A DNA stretch of 64,000 bases from a virus, in the IMG/VR virus record IMGVR_UViG_3300044859_002163, positions 1 through 64,000 of that record; one strand, given 5' to 3'. Below the pieces are notes generated by a model. That model was not told where the DNA came from. It did not search any database and saw only the letters and a program-made list of their open reading frames with translations. Shown piece after piece: positions 45,411-64,000 of this stretch. A program made the translations under genes and the position numbers. Each line of letters starts with the position of its first letter. The stretch's first letter is position 1.

Positions 45411-45415
45411 CTTAG

Positions 45416-45925: not shown

Positions 45926-45927
45926 CT

Positions 45928-47876: not shown

Positions 47877-47911
47877 GTTAGTAGTTTCCTTATTAGGTTT
47901 GGATAGTTATC

Positions 47912-49219
47912 TCACACGACTATAGCGATTCTTCCTCGCTGTGGCAACCCGAGCCCTGTTAAATGCGTAAAAGCTCCAACCGCAGAGTCAACTTGGTCGT
48001 CGTGGTCGCAAGCCTCTGGAAATGAGGAAAATTCGTCAAGCCAGTCCGACAGCCATGTTCCTCGGACCACACGAACGTTGCCGTTGGCTGCCGCAGCGGC
48101 AAATGGTCTTGCTCTGGTCACCTTGTCGCCAGTTGACCGAATTGCCCCAAAATCGTAGCCTGGAACAACATATCTAGCGTATTGGTCCATGAGCGCCTTG
48201 CCCGATGAACCAGGCTCTTGTTCCATCCGAATCGGCACACCCTTGCCGTCCTCGTAGGCCGTTCTGGCTATAAGTTCTTCTACCTTTTCCCCTCTTACCC
48301 GAGCCTTCTTCACATCCAAAACGTAGGCGATTCCTTGGTCAAAAAGCATCAGCGTTCCAACCGTCCAGTCCGGGTTGGGGTTGGAGTGATTTGGCTCCGT
48401 GGCTGCAAGGTCCCAAAACCTCACGGCTCTGGCAGACGATGTTATTTGAGGGATTTCATTATCGTCAACGATGACTATTGAGGTCCTATCGAACAGGGTT
48501 CCCAAAGTCGTGCTCCACCAGTCTCCTTCTTCCAATCTGCGTCTTTCAATTGGGTCAAGAGCCTGAAGGGCTTGGCGGTATGAAACGGCGTCAATTCCCG
48601 GGTTATCTGTCAATTTTGAAGGGACGAAGATTCTGCCCTCGGTTTTTCCTTCAACGATGAAACGCTGTCTAACCCAATTGGGGGCAGGGTTTGAGGCCGA
48701 ACGCATTCGCAAGGGGACCGAAGAAAGAGGTCCAGATGCCGGTCGACGCAGACGGGAGAACATGTACCTGTAATCGCTTTCACGGATTTCAGTTACTTCG
48801 TCCATGCCGATAAATTGGAATTCCGAACCCTTGTAGCGAAGATAGTCGCCGGTGTTGTTCAAGTAACCGAACGAGACTCTTGCCCCTGACGGGAACGTTG
48901 CTTGGAAGCTGTTGTTGTTCCAGTGGATGTCGTCATAAAGAGCCGCCCATGACTTAAAACGGTCCATCAAAGCTCCAGGGAGTGACAAGTCGGCAAATGT
49001 TCGTCTGAAGAGAATCGCGGAATAATTGGGGACATCTACATACTGCAAAGCAGACATAAGAAGCGCAGAAGACTTTCCACCGCCAGCCGCACCACCGAAT
49101 AAAGCCTCAATGGAGTTGGTCCGCAAAAAAACTTTCTGATTTATTGACGGCTCTTCTGGGCAGAAAGGCGGCATCTTCGGCTGAAGGTACTCCAGAACCT
49201 GATTCCAATTTGTTGTCAT
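47912..49219 (-). CDS. terL: Terminase large subunit
   Basis: A 435-aa protein with Walker A GGAAGGGKSSAL (about 42-53), Walker B FQFIGMDEVTE (about 134-144), and the RNase H-like nuclease residues RFWDLAATEP, EQEPGSSGKA and HDDQVDSAVGA. It packages DNA into the prohead. No small terminase is recognised nearby. It is divergently placed from the portal module. Confidence 0.95.
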   Translation of the reverse strand: MTTNWNQVLEYLQPKMPPFCPEEPSINQKVFLRTNSIEALFGGAAGGGKSSALLMSALQYVDVPNYSAILFRRTFADLSLPGALMDRFKSWAALYDDIHWNNNSFQATFPSGARVSFGYLNNTGDYLRYKGSEFQFIGMDEVTEIRESDYRYMFSRLRRPASGPLSSVPLRMRSASNPAPNWVRQRFIVEGKTEGRIFVPSKLTDNPGIDAVSYRQALQALDPIERRRLEEGDWWSTTLGTLFDRTSIVIVDDNEIPQITSSARAVRFWDLAATEPNHSNPNPDWTVGTLMLFDQGIAYVLDVKKARVRGEKVEELIARTAYEDGKGVPIRMEQEPGSSGKALMDQYARYVVPGYDFGAIRSTGDKVTRARPFAAAAANGNVRVVRGTWLSDWLDEFSSFPEACDHDDQVDSAVGAFTHLTGLGLPQRGRIAIVV

Positions 49220-49272
49220 ATTTAATTTGCCTCTTGATACAGTTAAGCACGGAATGCGCTACTGTAGGTGAT

Positions 49273-49473
49273 ATGTCAAAATTACTGTCTAAATTAAAAA
49301 ACCTACCAGCAAGCATCAAATCCTTATTTAAACGCACTACGTTCGCCAACTTGCTTATGATTTCATTTATACTGTTTACCAGTATTGGTGCGGCACTTAT
49401 TTTCTTACCTGCCGGATTGATAGTGGCAGGCATAACTTGTGGTTTTTTCGGCTTCCTATTAGGTCTTGAGTAA
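49273..49473 (+). CDS. Small membrane protein (two TM helices)
   Basis: A 66-aa protein with a basic N-terminus (KLLSKLKNLPASIKSLFKR) and two hydrophobic helices (LLMISFILFTSIGAALIFL and LIVAGITCGFFGFLLGL). It could be a holin-like protein, but no lysis partner lies nearby. The ATG at 49273 has AGGTG upstream; the longer ORF to 49144 would run into the divergent terminase gene. Confidence 0.6.
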   Translation: MSKLLSKLKNLPASIKSLFKRTTFANLLMISFILFTSIGAALIFLPAGLIVAGITCGFFGFLLGLE

Positions 49474-49475
49474 AT

Positions 49476-51551
49476 ATGGCATGGAATCAATCGAGCAATA
49501 AGTCGCTCTCAAACGCACAATCCAAGGAACTAGGCCCTGGCGCGCCTATAGCGCAGAACCCAAGCTATGCAGGAAGACCGTATAGAGACTCATGGGATGT
49601 CGAGCGTGCATACCGCGAAGGAATGCAGAAGGTCACTTGGGTTGCACGATGCATCGATGCGATTGCAGGAAATCAAGCACGACTACCAATTATTCTTCGC
49701 AAGGACAACTCTCCAGATGGAGAAATTCTTGTTGGGAATAGAGCAAAAAACAACTCTTTGCTTGAAGTTCTGAACACCAAATCAAACGTTGGTGAAAACT
49801 CTTTTATCTTCAGATACAGAATGTCCGCTCAACTTTTGCTTGGTACACGCGGTGTATTCATTGAAAAGGTTCGTGGAAGAGACGGAAGAATAATTGGTCT
49901 CAACCTTTTGCCTCCTCAATCAACAGCACCAATCCCAGATGCAAAGAAGTTTGTGTCTGGGTACGAAGTGCAAATGCCTTACGGTCAAAAAATCATAATG
50001 AAACCAGAGGATGTTTGCTGGATTAGAAGACCTCACCCTCTTGACCCATATTTGTCACTCACCCCTCTTGAGTCGGCTGGCGTTGCAATTGAAATTGAAA
50101 ATCTTGCAAAGCTATACAACAGAAACTATCTACTCAACGACGGAAGACCTGGTGGCCTGCTCGTTTTGCGTGGAGAAATCGAAGACGATGACAAGGAAGA
50201 ATTAAAGAGCAGATTCCGTGGGAACATCGGAAGAGCGGGTCATACGACGGTTATCTCTGCTGACGATGGTGTTGACTATGTAGACACATCTGCTTCGCCG
50301 AGAGACGTTGCTTACGCACAAATGAGACAGATTACAAAAGAAGAAATTCTTGCATCATTCGGCGTCCCAGAGTCTGTAATCGGAAACGCTGCAGGAAGAA
50401 CATTCAGTAACGCAAGCGAAGAAATCCGCGTGTTCTGGATGGAAACCATGCTTCCACACCTTGAACCACTAGCGCGTTCTCTAGACGAACTAGACGATGA
50501 GTACTACATCGACTTCGATACAAGCGAAGTTCCAATTCTTCAGCTCTACAAGCAAGAGCGTGAAAGATACCTGATGCAGGAATTTCAAACTGGCCTTATC
50601 AGCAATAACGAGTACAGAATGGGTTCTGGAAGAAAAGAAGTTGAAGCAGACCTTGCGGACTCTCTGCTCATGAACCCTAACCTTATTCCAATCGCGAATA
50701 CAAAGAAAAAGATGGAAACTGCTCCATCGGCAGAAATGGGTGGACCACCAATGCCGGGAGCGCCAATGCCGGGAGAGCCTATGCCAGGCGCACCAGCACC
50801 AGACGCCCCAGTTCCTGGGGTGGATGGACAACCACCGCTTGACCCGAACACCATGCAGGGAGCATTGGCTCAAGTCGAAACCCCAGCCCCAGACCAGCTG
50901 GCACAAAGCACAATCCCACCAGAGGCGCTTGCTGCTGTTGCTACCACCGCCGAGCCGATACCGGCTGGAGCGGCATCTGTGCCATCTGGAGAGATGATGT
51001 ATAAGTCAATCGAGAGTGAGCTACAGGTAAAAAGCACAGAGTCACTGACTAGGTGGAACGAGATACTCAACAGAAGTATCGAACGGGTTATTGAGAGACA
51101 ACAAAGAGTGGTTCTTGAAAAGGCAAGCGGCTCAAAGGCAAAGAAGTCACTGTTTGCTGGGACCCTAGAAATCGACTCCATACTCTCCCCCGAGGTATGG
51201 GACAAGCAGATGGACGAGGATATAAGGCCTGTCATTTCTGCAATTATCCAGGACTCGTTCAATATGTATAACGATGGGTACGGTCAGAAGTCGGAAAAGA
51301 GTATAAATCAGTCGGACCTCAACGCTCAGATTGATTCGCAAATGTCGCGCATAAAGAGTATGAATCTTGAAAACTTTAACCAGGTTTCCTCAATGATGTT
51401 TAACTCATTGGCTGTCATGGGCGAAGAGGAGAGAGCAGCATCTTTCCGTGGTGCGCTTGTAAGCATGTATGCGAACCTCATGGCTAAGCAAAGATTTGAA
51501 ATTGCAGAAGACGAATCGCGAAGAGCGTGGAAGTTTGGCCAGTTCATTTAG
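49476..51551 (+). CDS. HK97-type portal protein with long C-terminal extension
   Basis: A 691-aa protein. The core (to about 360) has VARCIDAIAGNQARLPIIL, WIRRPHPLDPYLSLTPLES, NDGRPGGLLVL and SFGVPESVIGNAAGRTFSN, diagnostic of HK97-type portals. From about 410 there is a Met/Pro/Gly/Ala linker (PMPGAPMPGEPMPGAP) and then a helical domain with coiled-coil pattern, so the protein is about 200-250 residues longer than a typical portal. The extension may act as scaffold or a contact for the polyprotein. It follows the membrane gene by 2 nt. Confidence 0.9.
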   Translation: MAWNQSSNKSLSNAQSKELGPGAPIAQNPSYAGRPYRDSWDVERAYREGMQKVTWVARCIDAIAGNQARLPIILRKDNSPDGEILVGNRAKNNSLLEVLNTKSNVGENSFIFRYRMSAQLLLGTRGVFIEKVRGRDGRIIGLNLLPPQSTAPIPDAKKFVSGYEVQMPYGQKIIMKPEDVCWIRRPHPLDPYLSLTPLESAGVAIEIENLAKLYNRNYLLNDGRPGGLLVLRGEIEDDDKEELKSRFRGNIGRAGHTTVISADDGVDYVDTSASPRDVAYAQMRQITKEEILASFGVPESVIGNAAGRTFSNASEEIRVFWMETMLPHLEPLARSLDELDDEYYIDFDTSEVPILQLYKQERERYLMQEFQTGLISNNEYRMGSGRKEVEADLADSLLMNPNLIPIANTKKKMETAPSAEMGGPPMPGAPMPGEPMPGAPAPDAPVPGVDGQPPLDPNTMQGALAQVETPAPDQLAQSTIPPEALAAVATTAEPIPAGAASVPSGEMMYKSIESELQVKSTESLTRWNEILNRSIERVIERQQRVVLEKASGSKAKKSLFAGTLEIDSILSPEVWDKQMDEDIRPVISAIIQDSFNMYNDGYGQKSEKSINQSDLNAQIDSQMSRIKSMNLENFNQVSSMMFNSLAVMGEEERAASFRGALVSMYANLMAKQRFEIAEDESRRAWKFGQFI

Positions 51552-51555
51552 GGAC

Positions 51556-51594
51556 TTTCAGTAAAACAACAGATTTCCAAATCGTTTACTGAAA
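51556..51594 (+). terminator. Long hairpin between portal and polyprotein
   Basis: TTTCAGTAAA (51556-51565) pairs perfectly with TTTACTGAAA (51585-51594). Inside, GATTT/AAATC (51572-51576 / 51579-51583) can pair again. It is followed by a T-rich stretch. It may be a weak terminator or an RNase processing site that separates portal and polyprotein transcripts. Confidence 0.55.
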
Positions 51595-51670
51595 CTATTT
51601 GATTTTGTACCAATACTTGCTGTGAGCGCGCTCGTTGTTACTCTAATATCGTTTGTAACCAAGGAGCGCT

Positions 51671-54600
51671 ATGCCAAACTCTAACTTCGGAAACATTCAA
51701 TACAAGGCCTCGAATGGTCTCATCAAGCTAGATGAGCTTGAAGGAATTGTTGAATGTTTTGTTTCCGGAATAGGCAACAAAGACTCTGTTGGTGACATTT
51801 GCGCTACTGGTGCATTTGCTAAGAGCCTTCAGCGTCGTAAGCCACGTGTTGTATGGGGCCACAACTGGAACGACCCAATTGGTAAGGTCCTTGAAATATA
51901 CGAAGTCCCTGCTTCCGACCCACGCCTTCCTATGAAGATGAAAATGGCTGGAATTGGCGGATTGTACGCAAAGGTTCAATTCAACCTGCAGTCAGAAAAG
52001 GGCAAAGAAGCATTTGCGAACGTGGCTTTCTTTGGCGAAGAGCAAGAGTGGTCAATCGGCTACAAGACTCTTAGAGCGCAGTACGACGACAACCTGCAAG
52101 CAAACGTTCTCTACGAAGTAGAACTCTACGAGGTTTCCCCTGTTCTTCACGGCGCGAACCAACTAACTGGAACAATTTCCGTAAAGAGCGATGAAGAGAA
52201 GATGCATGGGATGATGCCTATGTCAATAAGCGCTCCATCATCAGAGCCACGACGAGACGGACTGTTTGACGAAGGTGTTTCACAAAGAATAAGTGGACCA
52301 CAGCTTGCAGGAGTGGTTGCCGAACTTTCACGCCGCGCCGCAGGACCAGTCATGGTTGTTGAAGCGACTGAGAACTCTGTGGTTTTTGTGAAGCCAGGAA
52401 AAGGAAAATTCAGAATTGGTTACCACTTCACTGGAAGCGAGTACATGTTTGGCAAGCCAGAATTAATTCACGCAGAACAGGCAAAACCGCCAGTCCAGTC
52501 TGGCCCTTCGCCAATGCCTGGGATTATGGGCAAACCGAATAAGCCGTCGACAAATAACCCTGCAATGGCAATGCCTGTAGCAATGAAGCCAGTTAATGGC
52601 GGAATGGTCATGGTTCCATTGGCGCCTGTTGAGTACGAAGGTTCTGACAAGAACAAAAAGCCAGAGCTTGGTGCAGAAGAGAGCGAGCTTGCCGAATCGC
52701 TTGTTCGTATCGCTCGCAAGTACGGAAAGTTTGACGAAGATGGTGATGGAATTTGGGCTGGATATTACCCGCCTGCCGAGAACAAAGTAAAAGACATCGG
52801 CGTAAAGTGCTCAAATTGCGTCCTCTACCAAGGCGAAGGCAAGTGCAAGATTCTTGGCCTTAAAGTCGAAGACGAGGGCAAGTGCCGATTTGCAATCATC
52901 CCAGATGGAGTTGTTGTCGGATTTGGCAAGAAGGAATACAACGACATTCTTGATGACGAAGAAATCAAGATGGTTGAGGACATCGAAGCGAAGTACCCTG
53001 GAGAATTCATTCTTGGGGTTTTGCGTAACACGGTGAAGAAGCGCCGTAGAAAGCGTCGCTCTTATAAGACTCTTGAGGAGTGGGGCGTAGAGGAGCAAGA
53101 GCTTGAGGAAAAGGGTCTCGACCCATTCTTGGCTCAAGACTCGTCATACGTCATTCCAGTAAATCTTGAAGACGCCTTTGAATTCAAGTCGGTAATTGAC
53201 CCAGTTCTTGATTACCACAGAATTGACACAACCGTCAACGAGTACGGAATCGTGATTAACTCACCGCTCAGCGAAGAGTCGAAGGACGCTATAACTAGAG
53301 CTGCATCTTCTGCTTATGAATTTCTAAAAAAAAAAATAGCTTCTGAGCAAATAGAAGAAAAAGCACTTGGCCGCCGTATCGGTCGTGCGATTGCAAGCCG
53401 AGGAATTGACCGACCAAATCTTGGCGGTAAAAGGGGTCGTCGCTCTCGTGGTTCCGGTATAAATCCGCCTCCAGGCTGGGACCCAAGAACAGTCGAAGAC
53501 GCAAACCTAAATAGCATGGTCGGCGACGGCACGCCATGGGAACAACCCGACCCAACGCCTTCTGGTCCTGGCTCCATCAATTCACCGAAGCCATCAAAGA
53601 GGCAGATGAGTCAGCGAGCCGAACTTGCTGATACAGAAAAACTCTCTTCTGGCAAGCGTAATGAGCGTCGCCATGCAGACCGTTCTGCCGACATGGAAAA
53701 GCAATTCCCAAATGCTGAAGAAAATCAGAAGCGCGTAGACCACGAAGCAATCGCTAAAGCATGGGATGAGCAGGGTCTTGGCTGGGAAGAAGTTCCACGC
53801 TACAACGCAGATAACAATTTAAGTTCTGACTATCTCCGTGGTCGCGAAATCGGAGTCAACCAAGCACGTGTTATGTGGAATGGCGATTCCGTAAGAAAGC
53901 GTCCTGAAAAGTTCAACGAGAAGCAAAAAGCTTCGCAAGAATACAGCAACTGGTATTCAAGCTATGCAAAATCGGTTAGCGCCTATCTTGATGCGCACAG
54001 CAGGGATGACTCAGACAACTGGGACGGAATTGAATCGGCCCTTAGAGCAGACGTCAAGTCTAAGTACCCAGACACGCAGGACTGGGCAAAAGAAGACATC
54101 GCCACCCTCAACGAATACCTGAACGACATTGGTCTTTTGGATGCAGACACACTAAAGAAAAAGAAAAAGAAAAAGAAAAAAGCTGGTGCTGGTGCAGCAA
54201 AAGGACCAGACCTTCAGGAACTTCGCAAGCTTAATTCAGAAGGCAAACTTTCTTCTGGTAATCAATTTGGTAGTGAGACAGAGAGACTTGCCGCTTGGAA
54301 GCCGGTACTAGCGGACCTTCGCGCGTTAAAATCCCGAGTCAACGGAGACGAAATCAATGATGGCCCGATTAATGGTCGGGCACGCGCATACCTGGGCCTC
54401 ATGGGTGAACTTGACGAAATTATCGCCAACGCACTAGAAGAGAGAAACCTTGACTTAGAGGGTCCAACAGATAAGTCGCGAGCAAGATTTGAGAGGCTTG
54501 TTAATGCGGGAGATTGGGCGCAGGCTCGGTTCCACATGGAGGGAGAAATTGCCTCTGTCAACGAAAAACGTTCCAAGCCTGTTGATGACGGAAAACTTTC

Positions 54601-57600
54601 TTCTGGTGCGATTCCTGATTCAGCTAAACAAAAAAGATTGATAGAAGCTGCTGAATCAGCCTCGGCTCGCAAGCCTGACGGAACAGAGACTTTCGCCGCA
54701 AGCGTTGCTCGTCAGTACCGCAGAAACGGAAAGCTTTCTGAAAAACAATGGTCGACATTGGACAGAATGTTCGGTGGGGCAAAACCAGATAGTACTCCAA
54801 AAACTTCTACATCAAAATCACCAAGCGCTCCATTCTCTGGAAAGAGAAGAGAAATTATTGACCTGGCAGACGTACCTGAATACGACTACCCAAATGCACC
54901 TGGTGGCAGAAAGCCAACTCCGGAGCAGTCGAATGCAATAGACGCAATGATGACTGGAGATGATGTAAAGATTTCAGCTCTTGCAGCAACCGGAAAAACT
55001 ACTACGGTAATAAATTTTGCAGAACGACTCAAAGATACAGAACCTTCAGCTAGAGCTCTGTATTTGGTCTTCAACGCAAATGCAAAAGACGATGCTGGCA
55101 AGAGAGGGATGCCGGACAATGTCAAGGTAATGACGATGGACGGCGTTTCATACAACGCAATGCGTACAATCAATCCGGAAATGACGGCAAAGAGTTTCTC
55201 CAAAGACAGCGCATATATAAAACCAATAATGAGATTCGTAGACAGAGCAACCTACCTGGGCACAAGAGGGACTGTTGACGAAGGTAAAGAATTAACAGCA
55301 GTAGATGTGTACAAGAGAGTCGCAAAAGCTGTAGATGCCTTTGCAATTAGTGGTGATACAGAAATTGGCTCACAGCACTTCGCGGGAAAGTACAACGGCA
55401 AAATGGCCGTAGAAAATCCTGAAATTATCGCAGAACTTCTCCCATTTGCTAAAAAGATGTGGGAAGACATGAATACTCCGCGAGTTGCTCCAAAAGGCAG
55501 CGACTCGGGTAAGGGCATGCTTCCGATGACGAACATGCATGTAACAAAGATGTGGGCTTTAACGAATCCTGACATTGGTGACTCCGAGGGAGTAAACGTG
55601 GCAATGGTCGACGAGGCCCAGGATATGAATCCTGTTTTTGCCGGAATATTGCGTAACTCAAATGGTATTCAGCGAATTTACATCGGAGATACGAACCAGG
55701 CTATTAACGCGTGGCGTGGGGCTGACGGGAAAACCCTTGCTGATGCATATGCAAAATACGACATGCCAATTACCGACTCCTTCAGATTTGGAAAAGAAAT
55801 AGCCGATAGGGGAAATAGGTTCTTGAATTTGCTCGGAAGAACCGAGCGAATGAACGGTAGAAAAACAGACAAGTCCGGACGACCTGTAGATGGAAGAGTT
55901 GGCTCAATCAGTAATCCAACAATGATTTTGACAAGGTCTAACGGCGGAGGAATAGCAGCAACGCTGGATAGCTTTGAAAAAGGTAGAACTGTCTATGGCA
56001 GCAAAAACTTCAAAGACGACCTTAGTGCGTTCATTGACAACATTGAGTACATGACAACTTCAGCAACTGGAACGGGTTACTTCACGGATGTTGATGGCAA
56101 GCAAAATTTTGGCAAGCCGAAGGAGAGCCAAGACCTAGACGGTATAACAACCCTAGATGAATTCAATAAAGCGATTGAGAAAAAAGATAACAATCGACTG
56201 AACATGCTTGGAAAGATACTTGACAAGTATTCGTTTGAAGAACTTCGCGACGCCTTGGACAGAGTTATCACGGATAAGGCTAAATTGCCTAAAAACAGAG
56301 ATGAGTACGTGCACATACAGACTGCACATACATCTAAGGGCCTAGAGTCGCCAAGGGTGTTGATTTGGTCTGACTTTAGAGGACCGAAAAAAGACGATTT
56401 GGGCAACGTTGTATTCCCTGATGAGCAAGAACTCAGGCTGTCTTATGTCGCTGTAACTCGAGCCGAAGAGGAACTAGACCTTGGCTCACTTGGCTGGATT
56501 GAAAAATACGACAGTGATGCTGAAGTCTCATTGTCAGGTCTTTCTTCTGGACGAACAGACAGCGACCGACCAGTGCCGATGGATGACCGCGAAAGAGAGA
56601 TGTTCAACAGAAATGCGGCATTTATCGACATTCTTGATGACATGCTTCCAGAAGGTGAGTCCTGGGACGATTGGGTGTTTAATGAATTCGTAGACGCAGA
56701 TGGAACCGACGAAGAAAAATATGAATCAGTTTATGGTCCAACAACCGAACAAGAGCTAATTGACTACGCCAAACCAGAACGACGCAGTGATGCATCCGAC
56801 CAAGAGTACTTCGAGAGTATCTACGAAGAAGCAGCCCCAATTGACAAGCTGCAATACGTAGCGGAGAACTACAAACCAGCCGGAGCTGAATACGGAAGCG
56901 CAGAGCACCAAGAAGCATTTAAACAAAAACTCAGCGACAGTGGGCTGACTTCACGCTTCTCTTCAGGGATGCGCAAATTTGACGAACTTGACGAAATCGA
57001 CAAGCAACAGGCAGCCAAAAATCTTGCAGATGAAATAGGCCGCGTAATTGGTGGTGCAGATTCAGACCCAGATTTTGATTATGGTTTTAGAAAATTCATT
57101 GATGATTCAGGTGACTACGAACGTGGTGACAATGTTGATGCAATTAGAGACAATTATGCCAGCTTCCTCGTAGACGCAGCAAGGGATGGAGATTGGCAGA
57201 CCCTTGAAGACCATGATGTGGATTTGTCGAGCCTATTGGAGTACACGCCAGAAGCTCACCCGGACCGTGAAATGATGCTCGAGCTCGACAAGGACGACAG
57301 AGAATGGGCTGACATGATGTCGGAGATGCGGAGAGACCTCTCCTCAGATGGCTCAAGCGAAGATGAAGTAGAAAGAATTCTTGACCACTGGCTTTACAGC
57401 AGTGATTCACCGAAGCAGGAAGAATATCTAGACGAGTACAGAGAACAAGGCGATAACTACAGCGACAACTTCAACAGAGCCGCAAAGGCGATGTACCAGG
57501 ATTATCTGGAAAGGCTCTACGACAACCGTCAAGACAGAAACCTTTCTTCAGGAAGAATAAGCGAAGAACAGGAATCGCGAATCTCTGACAGAGAAGTATT

Positions 57601-60600
57601 TGAACGCCGCATGGCTGGAGAGTCTCTTGCAGAAACAGCAAAAGCTCTTGGTATGAAGCGCGAGGAAGTTAGACAAGCAGAAATGCGCCATATGGCCCGC
57701 GAGCGCGGAACATTGCAAACTCCAGACTTTGATGACATTGAGGCTTATCGTGAAGACCAGGCACGCATGGCTGCAGAAGAAGCAGCAGAGCTTGCTCTGA
57801 ATGAATCAATTTATCTTCGCCGCATGGGCGGGGAGTCTCTTGCCGCAACGGCAGAAGCCCTTGGAATGAGCAGAGAAGATATTAGAACTCGCGAGCAAAA
57901 GCATATGCAACTCATGCGCAGCATGGATAAAGAAGCAAAACGCTGGCTTGACCGCGATGGAGCATTCTCTTCTGGAAGAAAAGATTACGTAAGTCCTCTT
58001 GATGACCTTGAAGTTGGTCAAAGGCTTTCATCAGGAAAGTTGGACGAGGTTTACAGAAGCGTTCAATCAAACCTGATAGAGCAAATAGAAAAGATTCAAG
58101 AATCAGGTGATGGCAAGTGGGAGTTCCCTTGGCACAAGACATCTCTGCCGAAGAACGTAACGAACAACAACCGTCCTTACAGCGGAATCAACAGCGTAAT
58201 GCTGATGTTCAAGCAGGACGCAATGGGTTACGACATGCCTCTATGGGCTGGGTTTAATCAGTGGAAAAAAGAGGGCGGAACAGTACGCAAGGGCGAAAAA
58301 GGCACCTTGATATTGATTCCTACAATTATTCCTAAAAAGAAGGATGCAGACGGAAATGAAATTCGCGGGTCCGGAGGAGTGTTCTTTAAGACTGGACATG
58401 TTTTCAACATCGACCAAATTGACGGAATCGATAAGGAGAAGTTCAGAGTCCCAGAACTCCCAGAAGAAGAGCGCGTAGCCGAACTTGAACAAGCCTTGTC
58501 AGAAGTTGGTGCGGTTGTTAATACTGGTGGAGATAGAGCATTCTATAGACCATCAACAGACGAAATACATCTTCCTCCATTCTCTGCATTCAAGAGCAGA
58601 GAAGGTTATTACGCGGTATTCGCTCACGAGTTAATGCACTGGACAGGACATCCATCACGTCTGAACAGAGACCATCTTGGAGAGTTTGGAAGCCCTGAGT
58701 ATGCACAAGAAGAACTTGTTGCAGAAATAGCTTCTGCATTCTTTATGGCTGCACATGGTCTAACCCCAGAGCCAAGAGAGGACCATGCGCAGTATCTTGC
58801 TGGCTGGTTGAAGAAACTTAAGTCTGACCCTGATGCAATGAAGAAGGCTTTTGGCGAAGCTCAAAAAGCACATGATTACGCAATATCAAAGTCTCCATCA
58901 ATGAGCGCAAAGCTCGGCAAAAAAGTTGCAGAGTCAGGAGTACTCCCAGGCAACAACGACGGAGGATATGGCGACATCGGTCCTTCACTTTCTTCTGGCA
59001 AACGTGAAAAATACGTAAGGAATCCAGAAGGAACAATAAGAACCCTTGCTGACGAAATGGGCGCATTCGGAGATGAACTCTTAACCAGATTTGATATGGC
59101 AAGAGGTGGTCGCATTAACGACAGGCACTACTTTGTTGGCCGTGCAGATTTTGAAGAATCAAGGGCTTCAGACAATGAATGGGACATCACCGAGGGCGAA
59201 AACGGCCTTTGGAGTGCAGCACTGCTGCGACTTGAATTCAATGAGGACTCCGACCGTGATTGGGCTGGAGTCGTCAGCGATGAATACGACAGTCCTGAAG
59301 ATGTGGCTAGGTGGATTAGCGATTACGAAGACACCCGTAAAGCATGGGCTAAAAAATTCAAAGAAGAAACAGATTTTGAAAAAATATCAAGCATGCTTGA
59401 CGAAGAAACAGCCCGCAGAGACGCAGAGTATCAAGATTCCATAAGGATTGTGAACGAACGTTACGACAGGCAGCAATACACGCGGATGATTGCGGAGATT
59501 GATGAATCACGTCTTGAATGGAGCGCAGAAGACTGGGCAGATGAGGCCAGCGATATTCGGATGGAGCTTGCAAGAGAAAATGGCAGGCTTTCATCTGGCG
59601 TTCGCTCAAGATACGACGAAACTCCAGTAGAAACAATTGGCACAGTATCGAATGCTCTTAAGAGAACGGATGAAGCTGGTTCAAACTCAAGATACATCGC
59701 TTCTCGATTAGCCCCTGTGCCTGCTGATAAGTACGATTTTGACTCGATACGCAGGAACGGTGAAAGCGTTTCATTCACGTACGGCGGAAAGCCAAGAACC
59801 ATCTACCCAACTGGAATGATGGCCAAAAAAGGCGGCGGCATATATGTCGTAGGTCTTGACGATGACCAAGGTCAGTACAGAAGTTACAGTCTCCACAAGA
59901 TTGAGGGACTAGTTGACGGCGCGGATGCTCCATACAACCCGACACAACCAGGTGTTCCACGTGGCACCCCTGGTGCCAGGGCGCAAAGAACAAGAAATGT
60001 CACTTCAGGCAGATTGAGTTCTGGGAGAATCAGACCACTTGATGAAGTGCGTGCGGAGATTGAGGACGACGCTCGATACGAGAGCATGGTTGTACAAAAT
60101 GCTTTTGGCGGAAGGCTTGGAACAGAGAAAAAAGGTGAGTTCCGCGTAACAATCCCTCTTGAAGACCACGCCGAAGCAGTTCAATCTCTCGACCGACTTG
60201 TCGCTCTAAGAAATGATTTGCTCCGTTCCTTGCTTGATGGCAAGAGAATGCCTGCCGGTTCGTCTATTTTCGAAATTGACAAATATGCGCCAGTTGCAGA
60301 AGATGAGATGGATTTGCTGGTGGACATCGACGATGCGATAGACAGAATTCACGATGAATTGAGACGTACAGAAGAGACCCTCTCTGGACTAAATGACGAG
60401 ATTGAGGACATGAAGGGCAGCATTTCTGAACTAGAAGATGCCTTCAGAACCACAACTCGCATGGGGGCAAGGGACATTCCAGGCCCAGTTGATTTCGAAT
60501 CAGCGATGGAGAGAAATATAGACCTTGCCGATGGGGACAACGAAAGAGCTATTGACCTAATCAAATCTGACGCAGACTCCATTATCTATGCACTCGAGGA

Positions 60601-62362
60601 AATTGACGACGTAGAAGACAGATTCTCCACGGTTACCCACGAAGAGCAAATTGCCGAAATAAAAGAACTCATCGATTCTGCAGACCGTGGAGATTTGACT
60701 CCACAAGAGTTTGCATCAAAGCTTGGAGATTTGTACGTCAAGAACGTAAATGGTCTTGAAGACGAGCTGAGCGACCTTTTTAGCACTCAGACGTTCTTTG
60801 AAGACAATGGAGTGGCCATAGACAGAGAAGATATTACGGGAACTCCTGATGATGTTTTTTCTCCTAGGAACCTCTCTAACTTCGATATGGTTGAAGGCGA
60901 TGCAGCAGAGTTTTCTTCTGGTAGAAGAAATAGAACTCAAGGCTCAAAGCGTCGCCCAATGGCGGATGCCGATAGACAGGCATTCGCTGACGGAGTAAGA
61001 CAAAGAGCAGCAACTATCCCAAGCAAGAGGCGACCAGGACCAAGCAAAGATGAATTTGGTACCGACCGACTCAGCTCTGGAAGACTCAGATTCCCTAACA
61101 GCGAGACCAGAAACAGTGTCGGCAATTACCTTCAGGACAAAGTCAAAATAAAATTTGGCAAAATGTCAGGGAATAACGACAGGTCACCAGATGGTAAGTG
61201 GATGCTTGACGCTAAAAAACTCGAGCAAATTCTTAGGGACGAAGACGGGAACCCACTAGACAGGGAGCAGAGTGCAAAATTCCTTGGCGTAAGCGAGATA
61301 GAACTTGAAAAGATGTTCCAAGATGGGGCGGGTATTTCTGAAATAGACGCTTACGAATTTATCGACAGGGCATTCTTTAACGGCAGAGACCCAGGCAGGT
61401 CATACGAGACGCTTGAGGCAGTTTGGGGCTTCGATGCAGCTCCTTACTGGTATGACCGTCGTAGAGGTAATCAGCTAAGCAGAGCAGAATACGAGGACTA
61501 CAAAGAAGAGGGTATAGCGATGTACCCCCTCTACGCACCAATAGATTTCGAGCTTCCTGAGGAGTTTGTTGCTAGAGAAGTTTCAAAGAGCGCCTTCCCC
61601 GTTTCTGCCCTTGCAGAATCATTCGGAGTTGAGTCTGATGACGACCTAGCAGAAGCCATTACGTTTGAGGTTGACGGTGAAGAGATTAAGCCAACTGCAA
61701 TACAGCTTAAAAAATGGAAAAAAGAAGGAGTTCCGACATCCATTATTGAGCAACTTGTCGACAAGGGCATAATCCCAAGCGCTGGAGACGTATTCGGTGA
61801 AGAGGGAGTTAAGTTTGACAACTCAATTAGACAATTCGACCTTTGGAAAAACATCACCGACACTCTTGCCAGAAGAGGCAAAAGAGTAAAAGGTAGAGAA
61901 CTTGACGAAGTGATTGGAGCAACCAAGGTCCAAACAAGACTCAAGGCTTTCGAAGAAGGAAAAGAAGGAAAATTCAGTAAAAACACTGGAAAAGCACTTC
62001 GTTATTCCGATGACGAAGTTCAGGTAATAGTTGACAGACTTAACACAATGTTCGACACCGACGAGACGGTTGAGTCAATTAAGAGTGGTGGTTCGTTGAG
62101 TAGCGGAAGAAGAGCTGCTCGCAGAATATCCAACACCGGACAGGAAGCAGTTGAAAAGCTTGCATCTGGACGCAAGAACAACGGAGCCCCAGAGAACATA
62201 ACCCCAAGAATGCAAAATGAAATAATGGGCTGGGCAGAAAATGCCACGTGGAGCAATTTCGCTCAAAGCCTTGTTTCGCAATTCAAGGCACAAGGGTTCC
62301 TGTCTCCAACTCAATGGACAAGTCTTCTCCGACTTCACGACAACTCGAAAAGTAGACGTTAA
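51671..62362 (+). CDS. Prohead protease fused to a multi-domain cargo polyprotein (3563 aa)
   Basis: The N-terminus is an S78 (HK97 gp4-like) prohead protease: His64 in WGHNWNDPIG, Ser128 in EWSIGYK, then YEVSPVLHGAN. Residues about 375-405 hold four Cys (CSNCVLYQGEGKC and a later C). After residue 657 the chain is punctuated by [LF]SSG at 658, 860, 976, 1624, 1763, 1958, 2099, 2119, 2440, 2640, 2782, 3081, 3134 and 3476, plus LASG at 3497. Between them lie a helicase, an ArdC-like enzyme, a WYL-like domain, HTH repeats and acidic segments. Typical prohead proteases have only about 200 residues. The ATG has AGGAG 4 nt upstream. An A11 run occurs at 53326-53336. Self-processing is inferred, not shown. 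Confidence 0.9.
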   Translation: MPNSNFGNIQYKASNGLIKLDELEGIVECFVSGIGNKDSVGDICATGAFAKSLQRRKPRVVWGHNWNDPIGKVLEIYEVPASDPRLPMKMKMAGIGGLYAKVQFNLQSEKGKEAFANVAFFGEEQEWSIGYKTLRAQYDDNLQANVLYEVELYEVSPVLHGANQLTGTISVKSDEEKMHGMMPMSISAPSSEPRRDGLFDEGVSQRISGPQLAGVVAELSRRAAGPVMVVEATENSVVFVKPGKGKFRIGYHFTGSEYMFGKPELIHAEQAKPPVQSGPSPMPGIMGKPNKPSTNNPAMAMPVAMKPVNGGMVMVPLAPVEYEGSDKNKKPELGAEESELAESLVRIARKYGKFDEDGDGIWAGYYPPAENKVKDIGVKCSNCVLYQGEGKCKILGLKVEDEGKCRFAIIPDGVVVGFGKKEYNDILDDEEIKMVEDIEAKYPGEFILGVLRNTVKKRRRKRRSYKTLEEWGVEEQELEEKGLDPFLAQDSSYVIPVNLEDAFEFKSVIDPVLDYHRIDTTVNEYGIVINSPLSEESKDAITRAASSAYEFLKKKIASEQIEEKALGRRIGRAIASRGIDRPNLGGKRGRRSRGSGINPPPGWDPRTVEDANLNSMVGDGTPWEQPDPTPSGPGSINSPKPSKRQMSQRAELADTEKLSSGKRNERRHADRSADMEKQFPNAEENQKRVDHEAIAKAWDEQGLGWEEVPRYNADNNLSSDYLRGREIGVNQARVMWNGDSVRKRPEKFNEKQKASQEYSNWYSSYAKSVSAYLDAHSRDDSDNWDGIESALRADVKSKYPDTQDWAKEDIATLNEYLNDIGLLDADTLKKKKKKKKKAGAGAAKGPDLQELRKLNSEGKLSSGNQFGSETERLAAWKPVLADLRALKSRVNGDEINDGPINGRARAYLGLMGELDEIIANALEERNLDLEGPTDKSRARFERLVNAGDWAQARFHMEGEIASVNEKRSKPVDDGKLSSGAIPDSAKQKRLIEAAESASARKPDGTETFAASVARQYRRNGKLSEKQWSTLDRMFGGAKPDSTPKTSTSKSPSAPFSGKRREIIDLADVPEYDYPNAPGGRKPTPEQSNAIDAMMTGDDVKISALAATGKTTTVINFAERLKDTEPSARALYLVFNANAKDDAGKRGMPDNVKVMTMDGVSYNAMRTINPEMTAKSFSKDSAYIKPIMRFVDRATYLGTRGTVDEGKELTAVDVYKRVAKAVDAFAISGDTEIGSQHFAGKYNGKMAVENPEIIAELLPFAKKMWEDMNTPRVAPKGSDSGKGMLPMTNMHVTKMWALTNPDIGDSEGVNVAMVDEAQDMNPVFAGILRNSNGIQRIYIGDTNQAINAWRGADGKTLADAYAKYDMPITDSFRFGKEIADRGNRFLNLLGRTERMNGRKTDKSGRPVDGRVGSISNPTMILTRSNGGGIAATLDSFEKGRTVYGSKNFKDDLSAFIDNIEYMTTSATGTGYFTDVDGKQNFGKPKESQDLDGITTLDEFNKAIEKKDNNRLNMLGKILDKYSFEELRDALDRVITDKAKLPKNRDEYVHIQTAHTSKGLESPRVLIWSDFRGPKKDDLGNVVFPDEQELRLSYVAVTRAEEELDLGSLGWIEKYDSDAEVSLSGLSSGRTDSDRPVPMDDREREMFNRNAAFIDILDDMLPEGESWDDWVFNEFVDADGTDEEKYESVYGPTTEQELIDYAKPERRSDASDQEYFESIYEEAAPIDKLQYVAENYKPAGAEYGSAEHQEAFKQKLSDSGLTSRFSSGMRKFDELDEIDKQQAAKNLADEIGRVIGGADSDPDFDYGFRKFIDDSGDYERGDNVDAIRDNYASFLVDAARDGDWQTLEDHDVDLSSLLEYTPEAHPDREMMLELDKDDREWADMMSEMRRDLSSDGSSEDEVERILDHWLYSSDSPKQEEYLDEYREQGDNYSDNFNRAAKAMYQDYLERLYDNRQDRNLSSGRISEEQESRISDREVFERRMAGESLAETAKALGMKREEVRQAEMRHMARERGTLQTPDFDDIEAYREDQARMAAEEAAELALNESIYLRRMGGESLAATAEALGMSREDIRTREQKHMQLMRSMDKEAKRWLDRDGAFSSGRKDYVSPLDDLEVGQRLSSGKLDEVYRSVQSNLIEQIEKIQESGDGKWEFPWHKTSLPKNVTNNNRPYSGINSVMLMFKQDAMGYDMPLWAGFNQWKKEGGTVRKGEKGTLILIPTIIPKKKDADGNEIRGSGGVFFKTGHVFNIDQIDGIDKEKFRVPELPEEERVAELEQALSEVGAVVNTGGDRAFYRPSTDEIHLPPFSAFKSREGYYAVFAHELMHWTGHPSRLNRDHLGEFGSPEYAQEELVAEIASAFFMAAHGLTPEPREDHAQYLAGWLKKLKSDPDAMKKAFGEAQKAHDYAISKSPSMSAKLGKKVAESGVLPGNNDGGYGDIGPSLSSGKREKYVRNPEGTIRTLADEMGAFGDELLTRFDMARGGRINDRHYFVGRADFEESRASDNEWDITEGENGLWSAALLRLEFNEDSDRDWAGVVSDEYDSPEDVARWISDYEDTRKAWAKKFKEETDFEKISSMLDEETARRDAEYQDSIRIVNERYDRQQYTRMIAEIDESRLEWSAEDWADEASDIRMELARENGRLSSGVRSRYDETPVETIGTVSNALKRTDEAGSNSRYIASRLAPVPADKYDFDSIRRNGESVSFTYGGKPRTIYPTGMMAKKGGGIYVVGLDDDQGQYRSYSLHKIEGLVDGADAPYNPTQPGVPRGTPGARAQRTRNVTSGRLSSGRIRPLDEVRAEIEDDARYESMVVQNAFGGRLGTEKKGEFRVTIPLEDHAEAVQSLDRLVALRNDLLRSLLDGKRMPAGSSIFEIDKYAPVAEDEMDLLVDIDDAIDRIHDELRRTEETLSGLNDEIEDMKGSISELEDAFRTTTRMGARDIPGPVDFESAMERNIDLADGDNERAIDLIKSDADSIIYALEEIDDVEDRFSTVTHEEQIAEIKELIDSADRGDLTPQEFASKLGDLYVKNVNGLEDELSDLFSTQTFFEDNGVAIDREDITGTPDDVFSPRNLSNFDMVEGDAAEFSSGRRNRTQGSKRRPMADADRQAFADGVRQRAATIPSKRRPGPSKDEFGTDRLSSGRLRFPNSETRNSVGNYLQDKVKIKFGKMSGNNDRSPDGKWMLDAKKLEQILRDEDGNPLDREQSAKFLGVSEIELEKMFQDGAGISEIDAYEFIDRAFFNGRDPGRSYETLEAVWGFDAAPYWYDRRRGNQLSRAEYEDYKEEGIAMYPLYAPIDFELPEEFVAREVSKSAFPVSALAESFGVESDDDLAEAITFEVDGEEIKPTAIQLKKWKKEGVPTSIIEQLVDKGIIPSAGDVFGEEGVKFDNSIRQFDLWKNITDTLARRGKRVKGRELDEVIGATKVQTRLKAFEEGKEGKFSKNTGKALRYSDDEVQVIVDRLNTMFDTDETVESIKSGGSLSSGRRAARRISNTGQEAVEKLASGRKNNGAPENITPRMQNEIMGWAENATWSNFAQSLVSQFKAQGFLSPTQWTSLLRLHDNSKSRR
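52799..52880 (+). other. Four-Cys cluster in protease C-terminal region
   Basis: VKCSNCVLYQGEGKC and the later GKCRFAI form C-x2-C-x8-C-x12-C, a zinc or iron-sulfur pattern sometimes seen behind phage protease or portal domains. Confidence 0.6.
53326..53336 (+). other. A11 homopolymer, candidate slippage site
   Basis: Eleven A residues encode part of L552-KKK-I556. Loss of one A turns the next codon into TAG at once; gain of one gives N-S-F then TGA. Either slip ends the protein after 555 or 558 residues, that is protease without the downstream cargo. Confidence 0.55.
53642..53653 (+). other. First [LF]SSG candidate processing site (L658-SSG-KR)
   Basis: First of 14 exact copies. Later ones start at nt 54248, 54596, 56540, 56957, 57542, 57965, 58025, 58988, 59588, 60014, 60911, 61070 and 62096, with the LASG variant at 62159. 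Ten of 14 are followed by Arg or Lys. Confidence 0.7.
54608..56539 (+). other. Polyprotein segment: SF1 (UvrD/FBH1-like) helicase
   Basis: Between the sites at residues 976 and 1624. Motifs in order: TPEQSNAIDAM (Q), ALAATGKTTT (Walker A), VDEAQDM (II), GDTNQAINAWRGA (III), TAHTSKGLE (V) and SYVAVTRAEEEL (VI). The order and motif III resemble FBH1-type UvrD helicases. It unwinds DNA, probably early in infection if delivered with the virion. An FSGKRR at 54833-54850 could be an extra, divergent cut site releasing a short N-terminal piece. Confidence 0.88.
57554..57964 (+). other. Polyprotein segment: duplicated HTH-like module
   Basis: Two repeats: RMAGESLAETAKALGMKREE and RRMGGESLAATAEALGMSRE. 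Each reads as helix-turn-helix (A-x-x-L-G-M turn) followed by a R-x-x-E-x-(R/K)-H-M helix. The segment lies between sites 1958 and 2099. It could bind nucleic acid. Confidence 0.65.
58037..58987 (+). other. Polyprotein segment: ArdC-like antirestriction metallopeptidase
   Basis: Between sites 2119 and 2440. The N-terminal domain (KWEFPWHKTSLPKN, RPYSGINSVML, LWAGFNQWKKEGG, RKGEKGTLI) is the ArdC single-strand-DNA-binding domain, and FAHELMHWTGHPSRLNR is the HExxH zinc site of the zincin-like C-terminal domain. ArdC-type proteins protect incoming DNA from restriction, so delivery from the virion would be useful. Confidence 0.88.
59600..60013 (+). other. Polyprotein segment: WYL-like domain
   Basis: Between sites 2640 and 2782. 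SFTYGGKPRTIYPTGMMAKK then IYVVGLDDDQGQYRSYSLHK resembles the WYL beta-sandwich that binds nucleic acid or nucleotide ligands in regulators. No HTH is attached in this segment. Confidence 0.6.
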
Positions 62363-62499: not shown

Positions 62500-63957
62500 A
62501 TGGCTTACGACGACAAGGCAACAGTGAGTATTGACAGCGAAGGAGCTGTGCTCAAGTGCGCCAAGGGGCTTGAGGCTTCTGCATGCGGTTTTACACCAGG
62601 CGCAAAGGTGTGTGGCAAATGCGGTGCAATGCCAGTAGAGATGAAGATGGTACCAGCAACAGACCTTGATGTTGCTGATGAAGACATGACCGAAGAGGAC
62701 ATGCAAAAGATGTACGGCATGATGCCAAAGAAGAAGCCAATGAAGGCCATGGGCATGGAAGAGGACATGGAAGAAGGCGCGGAAGAAGACATGGAGTCCG
62801 AAGAGGAAGACATGGAAGATGACGAAGACATGATGGATGATGAAGAAAAAGTCAACACCGCTATGCACAAGTTCAAGAAAAAAGGTGCCGGTGAAGAAGA
62901 CGAATTTGAAGCTGAATACCCAGACGAAGAAGACTTCACTGAAGAAGAAAAAGGCTCGATGGAAGACGACATGGACTCCGAAGATGAAGAGGACATGGCG
63001 GAAGCTGAGAAGCAAAATATCATGATGGAAAAATTCCGCAAGCGCCGCATGGCGACAATGGGAATGAAGTCAGATGAGCTTGGCGACCATGATTACATCT
63101 GCGCAATTGAGCGTAAGTCCTACTCAGCCGTAACTTCTGTCTGCGACAACTGCCCAGGTGGATGTATCGCAGAAAAAGGAATGCCAGGCCTCTTGAGTGT
63201 TGAGGGAATGGCTGAAGAAATGTTCGATGGAAAAGTAATCGATTCAGGTTACTCACCAGATGCCGACATGTTCGTCATTGATGTTCAGGGCAAGGATGGC
63301 AAGGCAGTCGAAGTGTTCATTGATGGAACTTCGGCAGAAGTCATGGGCTGGCACAAGCTTGATGAAAGCGTGTTTGAGCAGAAGGCAGCAATTGATGAAC
63401 TCAATTTGATTAGCTTCACTGACGCAGCTGAAATCGCAGTCAAGTCAATTGACGGTCATGTGGTTGCTGTTGAGCCAGACAACTTCGAAGGCATCGACTC
63501 ATACGCTGTTGAAATCGAAGGATTTGACGGAAAGTCATACGATGTATTCGTTGCTCTTGATGGCGAAGTTCTTGGTTACGACAAGTACGAACCAGAAGAA
63601 GCAGAAGAGATTGAAGCCGAAGCAGCAGAAATTGCTCTGAAGCGCGCATTCACCGAAGAGCAGCGTAATTCAATGGCCAAGGAAGGAAACGCGCTTCCAG
63701 ATGGCTCATACCCAATTGCAAGCGAGTCCGACCTGAGAAATGCGATTCAAGCATTCGGTCGAGCAAAAGACAAGGAAGCCGCAAAGCGACACATCCTTAA
63801 GCGCGCTCGTGAACTCGGCAAAGAAAATCTAATCCCAGCAGGCTGGGTTGCAGGTGGCGAAGGAATGAGCAAGAAAGAAGATGAAACCCTTGATGGAGAT
63901 TTCATGAAGTCGCTTGTTGAATTCCAGCTGCTCGAAGCAGAAACTGACACAATCTAA
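62500..63957 (+). CDS. Acidic zinc-ribbon / PepSY-like protein (485 aa), capsid-module
   Basis: N-terminal Cys20, Cys29, Cys38 and Cys41 form a zinc ribbon. Residues about 55-190 are extremely acidic and Met-rich (repeats of EEDM). A second Cys group lies in DHDYICAIERK and CDNCPGGC. Two PepSY-like repeats follow (MFVIDVQGKDGKAVEVFIDG and SYAVEIEGFDGKSYDVFVAL), then a C-terminal helical block (NAIQAFGRAKDKEAAKRHIL, LIPAGW) seen after proteases or capsid proteins in other phages. It may be a scaffold or a head-maturation protein. No [LF]SSG site. Confidence 0.6.
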   Translation: MAYDDKATVSIDSEGAVLKCAKGLEASACGFTPGAKVCGKCGAMPVEMKMVPATDLDVADEDMTEEDMQKMYGMMPKKKPMKAMGMEEDMEEGAEEDMESEEEDMEDDEDMMDDEEKVNTAMHKFKKKGAGEEDEFEAEYPDEEDFTEEEKGSMEDDMDSEDEEDMAEAEKQNIMMEKFRKRRMATMGMKSDELGDHDYICAIERKSYSAVTSVCDNCPGGCIAEKGMPGLLSVEGMAEEMFDGKVIDSGYSPDADMFVIDVQGKDGKAVEVFIDGTSAEVMGWHKLDESVFEQKAAIDELNLISFTDAAEIAVKSIDGHVVAVEPDNFEGIDSYAVEIEGFDGKSYDVFVALDGEVLGYDKYEPEEAEEIEAEAAEIALKRAFTEEQRNSMAKEGNALPDGSYPIASESDLRNAIQAFGRAKDKEAAKRHILKRARELGKENLIPAGWVAGGEGMSKKEDETLDGDFMKSLVEFQLLEAETDTI

Positions 63958-63973: not shown

Positions 63974-64000
63974 ATGACGGGTAAGCCGTTCTATAAAACA
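63974..64000 (+). CDS. Possible start of the next gene (partial)
   Basis: An ATG at 63974 opens a frame reading MTGKPFYKT to the window edge. The upstream GGGCGGCCCGCC is GC-rich and not a clear ribosome-binding site. A major capsid protein would be expected hereabouts, but too little is visible to tell. Confidence 0.2.

Follow-up and report, generated by a model that had tools for sequence, protein, structure and literature searches.

The window analysed here, bases 1–64,000 of a 68,955-base virus record (IMG/VR IMGVR_UViG_3300044859_002163), carries on its + strand an open reading frame (ORF) of 3563 amino acids (aa; 51671–62362) that is stop-free in a single frame and in which a Peptidase_S78 domain (residues 26–176; 51746–52198) heads a long chain of unrelated modules. 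Specifically, Pfam and PHROG profiles place along this chain a UvrD-like helicase module (residues ~1083–1602; 54917–56476; Pfam UvrD-helicase above its cut-off and UvrD_C just below its own, PHROG helicase 3.7e-61), a sigma-70 region 4-like helix-turn-helix (HTH; residues 2047–2083; 57809–57919; marginal in Pfam, 25.0 vs 24.1 bits), an ArdC N-terminal domain (residues 2127–2245; 58049–58405; PF08401, 1.5e-24), an MPTase-PolyVal zincin with the sequence HELMH (residues 2271–2393; 58481–58849; PF18818, 9.2e-43; HExxH at residue 2319) and a WYL domain (residues 2696–2747; 59756–59911; marginal in Pfam, 22.2 vs 21.8 bits), all on the + strand. Because all 10,692 bases of the ORF recur identically in the IMG/VR record G001 (160,449 bases), and its layout is kept with differing sequence in relatives L005, L010 and L011, the ORF is not an assembly accident.

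The S78 domain matched Peptidase_S78 (PF04586) at 36.6 bits against a cut-off of 21, covering positions 15–160 of the 165-position profile, and PHROG 80 at 4.9e-25. His64, Ser128 and Glu154 were near-invariant in 83 aligned rows, and His64 and Ser128, which we take to be the catalytic residues, were invariant in 30 rows. This supports a preliminary description of the window, which had placed an S78 protease with His64 and Ser128 in frame with the module chain. A predicted model of the domain (predicted local distance difference test, pLDDT, 67.4) had T4 gp21 as its nearest fold (Z 8.5 over 123 residues), followed by herpesvirus proteases (Z up to 6.1, where Z < 8 may mean little); Foldseek alone gave weak matches to the model (best E 0.012, a herpesvirus protease), and no solved structure matched the domain by sequence at E up to 1. 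The domain lies between a portal gene directly upstream (49476–51551, + strand; PF04860, 7e-49, and PHROG portal) and the major capsid gene, which stands downstream of the S78 ORF in G001. Profile, conserved His and Ser, gp21-like predicted fold and gene place together mark it as an HK97-type prohead protease with a putative role in head-protein proteolysis.

Downstream of S78, the chain contains 14 exact [LF]SSG tetrapeptides and one LASG (residue 3497). On the + strand, with flanking residues, these read KLSSGKR (residue 658; 53642–53653), KLSSGN (860; 54248–54259), KLSSGA (976; 54596–54607), GLSSGR (1624; 56540–56551), RFSSGMR (1763; 56957–56968), NLSSGR (1958; 57542–57553), AFSSGRK (2099; 57965–57976), RLSSGK (2119; 58025–58036), SLSSGKR (2440; 58988–58999), RLSSGVR (2640; 59588–59599), RLSSGR (2782; 60014–60025), EFSSGRR (3081; 60911–60922), RLSSGR (3134; 61070–61081), SLSSGRR (3476; 62096–62107) and the variant KLASGRK (3497; 62159–62170). 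By composition only 0.167 exact sites would be expected (2000 shuffles: mean 0.176, maximum 3), and Arg or Lys follows the Gly at ten of the 14 exact sites (11/15 with LASG counted). The Ser codons differ, such that the 14 sites comprise 13 distinct 12-mers, and TCN/AGY switches occur at corresponding sites of a relative (TCT-TCT at 658 vs TCT-AGT at 643; TCT-TCT at 3081 vs AGT-TCT at 3220). Our recount thus agrees with the preliminary description as to the number of sites, the ten followed by a basic residue, the chance expectation of fewer than one, and the varied codons. Recent DNA duplication could be discarded as the source of the sites on these codon grounds, as could chance or composition in the lineages that carry a motif, where the observed counts far exceed the expected ones. 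Separately, in the S78 ORF of L048 (genome G007) a module of ~130 aa was found duplicated along with its bounding GLSSG sites (residues 954–1084 and 1502–1632).

The preliminary description had held that motifs inside folded domains of homologues would contradict it. None of 105 sites in ten ORFs fell inside a Pfam envelope, against 21.8 expected, and none of 20,000 random placements equalled this (the helicase pieces being joined by hand and, for KTSC in two ORFs, only the best of five copies being known). The S78 ORFs of G012 (L263) and G011 (L267) each carry five KTSC-domain stretches per chain. In an AlphaFold model of residues 1930–2800, weak overall (mean pLDDT 55.5, 39% of residues below 50), five of the six sites lay in segments below 50, the sixth (2119; pLDDT ~63) standing just before ArdC. 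Cutting 25 chains at their sites yielded 272 segments of at least 40 aa. Among these the ArdC module kept a length of 316–382 aa throughout while changing place, being the 8th segment in the window chain, the 2nd in L076 and the last in G018 and G005; in G007 it occupies a separate ORF with a site just before it. The helicase module stands before or after the ArdC module, depending on the chain. Of 2754 alignment ends, which are not mutually independent, 26.3% fell no more than 10 aa from a site, vs 10.4% for random places, and identity at 762 aligned site pairs was 0.48, 0.57, 0.60 and 0.68 over the four residues vs ~0.32 around them. The repeated sites therefore lie between modules, as in a polyprotein.

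Relatives were gathered by IMG/VR scans, of which the best 80 each of 597, 588 and 599 matches were kept, so that the set leans to near relatives. From 191 loci with an S78 ORF, dropping 91 repeats of kept sequences left 100 non-identical ones, and the 75 of at least 900 aa were counted. S78 ORFs with repeated [LF]SSG, for which the preliminary description had proposed a search, do exist elsewhere: 38 of the 75 carried three or more, one carried a single copy and 36 carried none. Counts were lower in some of these, L075 and L076 having only four LSSG and L055, L063, L064, L069 and L078 seven [LF]SSG.

Among the long S78 ORFs with at most one [LF]SSG, a search for repeated gapped patterns showed that eight carry another repeated pattern (log10 p –8.0 to –26.9): LGSR x15 in L219 (0.10 expected), GFxSR x11 in L166 (0.05), GFAS x8 in L168 (0.04), GFxSxT x4–6 in L177, L180, L181 and L182 (0.02–0.03), and GxRSxR x5 in L220 (0.06). 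In relatives whose S78 domains are 70–92% identical, the spellings by lineage besides [LF]SSG are LGSR, GF[AG]SR, GFSSST and G[ML]RSxR, and the core common to all is hydrophobic-x-Ser. Among 20 shuffles of the window protein the best score was –7.1, and controls lacking a hydrophobic-x-Ser motif also score low because of charged or low-complexity sequence (–36.1 for the other G001 ORFs, from a Thr run; G035 –9.4, KKK; G041 –7.4; L315 –12.6 and L314 –8.1, charged runs; DSL-LC01 –7.9; DalanDe –7.7). Since real controls reach such scores, L180 (–8.0) and L220 (–8.3) are weak on their own; the L220 motif is borne out by nine further matches in four other ORFs, and that of L180 by near relatives. 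In six shorter ORFs of the 36 without [LF]SSG (L053, L062, L077, L117, L120 and L147), no hydrophobic-x-Ser pattern ranked at the top in the S78 ORF alone.

The residue before the motif also tends to follow lineage. Lys precedes it at 9–12 of 14–16 sites in L029, L030 and L033, Gly at 10/10, 8/8 and 11/12 in L038, L042 and L048, and Arg at 13/14 in L049; over 287 unique site contexts Arg and Lys together make up 61% of the residues directly preceding the motif and 52% of those directly following it, vs 14% in the background. The signal is mostly [KRG]-[LF]-S-S-G-[RK] in the [LF]SSG lineages, and hydrophobic-x-Ser-x in general. In an S78 tree of 100 rows built by a quick method, all 39 [LF]SSG rows fell on one side of a branch with a Shimodaira–Hasegawa-like approximate likelihood ratio (SH-aLRT) support of 98, and the six GFxS[ST] rows within one clade of nine.

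A wider scan, with one genome per species over 84,980 species, added three relatives (L313, L314 and L315). One of these, a contig from a metagenome-assembled genome (MAG), L313, has an S78 ORF of 2690 aa with no [LF]SSG and 13 [GA][LF]xSxR sites (shuffles 0.25, maximum 4 in 2000). The pattern was fitted on that same ORF, so the case agrees in kind but does not amount to a blind test. No repeated hydrophobic-x-Ser motif was found in the S78 genomes G041, G039 and G035 (S78 ORFs of 555–567 aa) or in the MAG contigs L314 and L315 (438–444 aa). L313, L314 and L315 sit in MAGs named Phycisphaerae and Gammaproteobacteria, and are likely mis-binned phage.

The motif was not confined to the S78 chain. 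Of 13 motif-bearing genomes, 12 had copies of their own motif in non-S78 ORFs of at least 300 aa as well. G018 has 15 [LF]SSG in its S78 ORF and nine elsewhere, G003 seven and three, and G005 18 and two; G007 has 12 exact sites (14 with MSSG) in the S78 ORF, and six plus four elsewhere. In G001, 14 sites in the S78 ORF are joined by two in a second large ORF and four more in the remaining ~41,000 aa (one in the presumed tape-measure ORF). The same holds for the other spellings: LGSR occurs in G012 17 times in the S78 ORF, four times in a 2693-aa ORF and not at all in the remaining ORFs of 118 kb, G017 has five G[MLI]RSxR in the S78 ORF and nine across four other ORFs, and of the four matches that G014 has to its own motif outside the S78 ORF, three lie in the presumed tape-measure ORF. 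Genomes whose S78 ORF is poor in cargo also have the motif in other ORFs: LRSSG in G008 (two in the S78 ORF, 13 in three other ORFs), [GR]LxSxT in G036 (three, and 17 elsewhere, or 11 with a stricter pattern), G[FML]xSxR in G043 (two, and nine elsewhere) and G[LF]xSxR in G038 (two, and seven elsewhere). The signal therefore looks as if it is read in trans and changes coordinately across the genome.

Homologous second large ORFs point the same way. In G007, G008, G036, G038 and G011 one poorly alignable linker region of these ORFs holds lineage-matched sites (with the spellings GLSSG, LRSSG, GLRSST and FASRG), variants occur there in G012 (LSSRG) and G001 (MASG), and no site was found in that region in G018, G005, G003, G017, G043 and G014. 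Lineage-matched sites in second ORFs are what a trans-acting reader with a lineage-particular taste would be predicted to leave. The single-chain picture of the preliminary description was accordingly too narrow, given that the motif varies by lineage, that sites also stand in separate ORFs and that some S78 ORFs have little cargo. Its view of a protease-cut polyprotein stands insofar as the tetrapeptides are conserved, lie between modules and outside recognised domains, and resemble the sites of a trans reader; that they are cut, that S78 cuts them, that this happens in the prohead and that the products are injected are matters of interpretation.

Taken together, these sequence comparisons make the window chain a likely true polyprotein of a tailed phage, cut after hydrophobic-x-Ser by its own S78 domain. 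Part by part, we are strongly confident that a trans-acting reader recognises the sites and, a shade less so, that they are cut; S78 is probably the cutter; and it appears fairly likely that the cargo is packaged and delivered, given its domain content (ArdC, helicase, sigma-like, RNase_T, GNAT) and its place among head genes. The S78 prohead protease would be translated as the N-terminal part of a chain of helicase, sigma region 4-like HTH, ArdC-zincin, WYL and other modules without recognised domains, and its fusion to this cargo would take the cargo into the prohead. Cleavage, in cis and in trans, would require a hydrophobic residue at P3 and Ser at P1, with the cut most likely after the second Ser (LSS/G), a placement chosen because hydrophobic-x-Ser followed by a small or basic residue shares the format of gp21 and gp245 sites. 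Cutting inside the prohead would free ~16 pieces, which would remain in the head until they pass into the cell together with the DNA, where they might counter restriction and start transcription or replication. More broadly, we lean towards a changeable cleavage code, in which each lineage would have one hydrophobic-x-Ser signal that its capsid protease reads, in cis as well as in trans, in several cargo polyproteins (perhaps also in capsid and tape-measure proteins); the specificity of the protease and, in several genomes, at least 20 sites would have changed together repeatedly, with cargo modules shuffled between sites as cassettes.

S78 itself offers candidate positions for this specificity. 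Residues 135, 137 and 148, carried with Ser128 on two strands of the model (127–139 and 144–157), separate 35 [LF]SSG from nine other-motif S78 domains without overlap. However, 25 motif-poor S78 domains have the other-motif letters at these positions, the separation amounts to one clade contrast, and L313, with its GLxSxR-type motif, has N135, T137 and H148 and so breaks the rule at 135 and 148. These three residues are thus a lead only as putative specificity determinants.

Several observations weigh against cutting by S78 in the prohead, or weaken the case for it. To begin with, cleavage itself is something that we so far infer, and the presence of S78 in such chains carries no weight, because the chains were found through S78. 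Two of the five G001 matches outside the S78 ORF (in ORFs of at least 300 aa) look like background, and G011 has no copy of its own motif in other ORFs of that size. On the S78 tree five motif states are represented by a single row each and the motif labels were assigned after the patterns had been seen, so that a count of seven changes for eight states informs mainly on [LF]SSG and GFxS[ST]. The capsid protein has L[ST]SR in 19/19 [LF]SSG genomes (16 distinct sequences) and in none of 11 others, which is suggestive but a single phylogenetic contrast, with Arg where the polyprotein has Gly. About 50 aa past the L[ST]SR place, aligned capsid proteins have [YF][ST][AST][LMI]P, presumably near where an HK97 delta-domain cut would fall; because this sequence does not change with the motif, the capsid cut is not assignable.

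The presumed tape-measure protein adds a further difficulty. In the window it is a 1405-aa ORF (31346–35563) with an in-frame KFSSGR at residue 36 (35447–35458, – strand). Sequence and place are the grounds for presuming that the ORF encodes the tape-measure protein; the family match is weak (PHROG 'tail associated lysin', E 0.0022), and Pfam gave no match. Among its counterparts, those of G001, G014 and G005/G006 (the last two sharing their first 100 aa) contain an exact copy of the genome's own motif, those of G003/G004, G012 and G036 a near variant, and those of G007, G008, G011 and G038 neither; those of G018 and G021 were left unscored because their start is unsure. In genomes with no known motif (G035, G039, G041 and G042) the first 100 aa held none. 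Such patchy sites fit poorly with cutting only inside the prohead.

Also on this side of the balance, an HExxH pattern is present in 13/13 motif-bearing genomes (in G014 as the pattern alone, of doubtful kind), and a zincin may therefore be the cutter. Here the sites would be cut by a zincin metallopeptidase module, either the MPTase-PolyVal beside ArdC or the HExxH domain of the second ORF, with S78 only maturing the capsid. No HExxH was found in ORFs >500 aa of the motif-free G039 and G041, and embedded MPTases have been proposed to release polyvalent-protein domains (Iyer et al. 2017, PMC5512222; this and all later citations refer to excerpts of the respective papers). However, the same association would be expected were the zincin cargo, the motif-free G035 also has an HExxH ORF, the S78 chains of G007 and G017 keep their sites without an ArdC-zincin (though HExxH occurs in other ORFs of both genomes), and the hydrophobic-x-P1 format is that of gp21-type proteases. 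We therefore regard a zincin cutter as unlikely. In G001, G003, G005, G007, G008, G014, G017, G018, G036, G038 and G043, HExxH stands at about residue 500–700 of the homologous second ORF, and in G001 and G018 no Pfam zincin family matched it.

Alternatively, the motif might remain uncut and serve as a docking or packaging tag on each module, bound by scaffold, portal or the S78 domain. A docking motif would likewise be read in trans and change coordinately, and T4 internal proteins have short capsid-targeting sequences beside their cut sites (PMC9026906). Yet an uncut chain needs one tag, whereas 14 lie between the modules of a single chain, and the pattern (hydrophobic, x, Ser, small or basic), sited in linkers, is short like gp21-type sites; we consider the tag quite improbable. 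Still less probable are flexible inter-domain linkers or module-shuffling scars that no reader recognises. The sites do lie in low-confidence, linker-like stretches of the model and module edges do cluster at them, but linkers need neither a hydrophobic P3, an exact Ser, near-uniformity within a genome nor a joint change in unrelated ORFs, the enrichment of Arg and Lys on both sides of the motif is not what they would give, and DNA scars are contradicted by the differing codons and the TCN/AGY switches. Finally, reading by a host protease, with lineage differences following host differences, is compatible with sequence for phages whose hosts are known only by an actinobacterial sign (WhiB in 10/12 genomes, the two without being the fragments G011 and G017) and probably are actinobacterial, but it is barely plausible given that motif type tracks the phage S78 lineage and that the sites have the format known from phage prohead proteases.

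By its parts, the window chain belongs among the polyvalent proteins of Iyer et al., which combine at least two disparate domains in a single chain encoded by a mobile element close to virion genes; here S78, UvrD, sigma region 4, ArdC-MPTase and WYL share one chain, with the portal ORF adjoining. As in that survey, many unrelated enzymatic domains are found per chain near virion genes, including ArdC-N with MPTase, and GNAT (PMC5512222). Iyer et al. compare polyvalent proteins with RNA-virus polyproteins and propose release by embedded peptidases; in the members surveyed, however, the assemblin-like peptidase is C-terminal, a trait that describes these members and does not define the class, whereas S78 is N-terminal here (residues 26–176 of 3563), and the excerpts mention no repeated, lineage-particular or trans cleavage motif for polyvalent proteins (PMC5512222). 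As far as the literature examined goes, the N-terminal S78 head, the repeated site, its lineage spelling, its spread over several ORFs and its coordinated change are new.

Apart from the predicted fold that S78 shares with gp21, the closest functional likeness is to the prohead proteases of T4 and SPN3US. T4 gp21 cuts after L/I-X-E (PMC9026906) and SPN3US gp245 after A-X-E with Ser favoured at P1' (PMC10052503); in both phages the protease cuts many head proteins, and several of the products are ejected (PMC9026906, PMC10052503). Like theirs, the putative cut site here is a short P3-x-P1 motif in several proteins per genome (12/13 genomes). In contrast, most substrates of T4 and SPN3US are separate proteins with propeptides and Glu at P1 (PMC9026906, PMC10052503), whereas here the putative P1 is Ser and up to 18 sites (G005) lie in one protease-containing chain; none of the lineage motifs has a fixed Glu at any position, and Ser recurs in the same place. 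The phage P1 anti-restriction proteins DarA, Hdf and DdrB also reside in the head, DarA being cut by the prohead protease Pro, but these are separate proteins, with one N-terminal cut described for DarA and none for Hdf (PMC12810830, PMC5512222). The 'PolA polyprotein' of TOSV is a polymerase fusion of a hot-spring phage, and 'cleavage' is not mentioned in the excerpt (PMC7689252). In searches of open-licence PMC texts, no phage polyprotein system of the present kind was found.

Among cultured phages, Gordonia GMA6 and DalanDe and Brevibacterium Cantare have a homologous S78 (~40% identity) just before the major capsid gene, as here, but the large ORFs tested there lack a comparable repeated motif. 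Cultured-phage candidates were taken from the best 60 of 91 phage records (isolated Nanopelagicales phages, PMC10202952, were not sought by name), and none with a motif of this kind emerged from the large ORFs tested, which were four in DalanDe, two in GMA6, four in Cantare and two in Streptomyces Gilgamesh; nor was a comparable motif present in seven large ORFs of the metagenome-assembled DSL-LC01. In DalanDe, gp27 (L082:6647–11548) has S78 at about residue 1119 of a 1633-aa ORF, with an N-terminal extension that bears no comparable repeated motif.

Downstream of the polyprotein ORF, the window contains an acidic ORF of 485 aa (62500–63957, + strand), the C-terminal part of which is 55% identical over 84 aa to the C-terminal tail of the protease ORF of Gordonia phage GMA6. 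It is possibly a scaffold-like partner, and the match looks as if a protease-scaffold gene had been split upon cargo insertion; the 485-aa ORF at the equivalent place in G001 has no [LF]SSG. Of the second large ORF only the start, with an inferred start codon, lies in the window (63974–64000, + strand); in G001 this ORF measures 2204 aa and carries HEIAH along with its two [LF]SSG sites. Elsewhere in the virion region of G001, two ORFs (45298–51912 and 52943–55021) share a Cys-bearing element, RCPxG...FTDxxxxxC, that is possibly a common head-targeting or structural element.

RNA-virus polyproteins combine a single chain, an embedded protease, repeated short sites and cutting in trans, and the present system would share all four, cutting in trans being putative; it differs in belonging to a DNA phage, in carrying delivered enzyme cargo instead of a whole proteome and in using an unrelated protease. 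It looks like the strategy of RNA-virus polyproteins arising in a DNA phage. If the interpretation is right, tailed phages use real polyproteins, loading early-acting enzymes in fixed ratio via fusion to the capsid protease and freeing them in the head. With one short signal per lineage, module borders and cargo would then be predictable from the sites in hundreds of uncultured genomes, even for ORFs that lack an annotated domain. The lineages would also offer a natural series for the co-evolution of a protease with its sites, and would suggest a simple route to load foreign proteins into phage heads.

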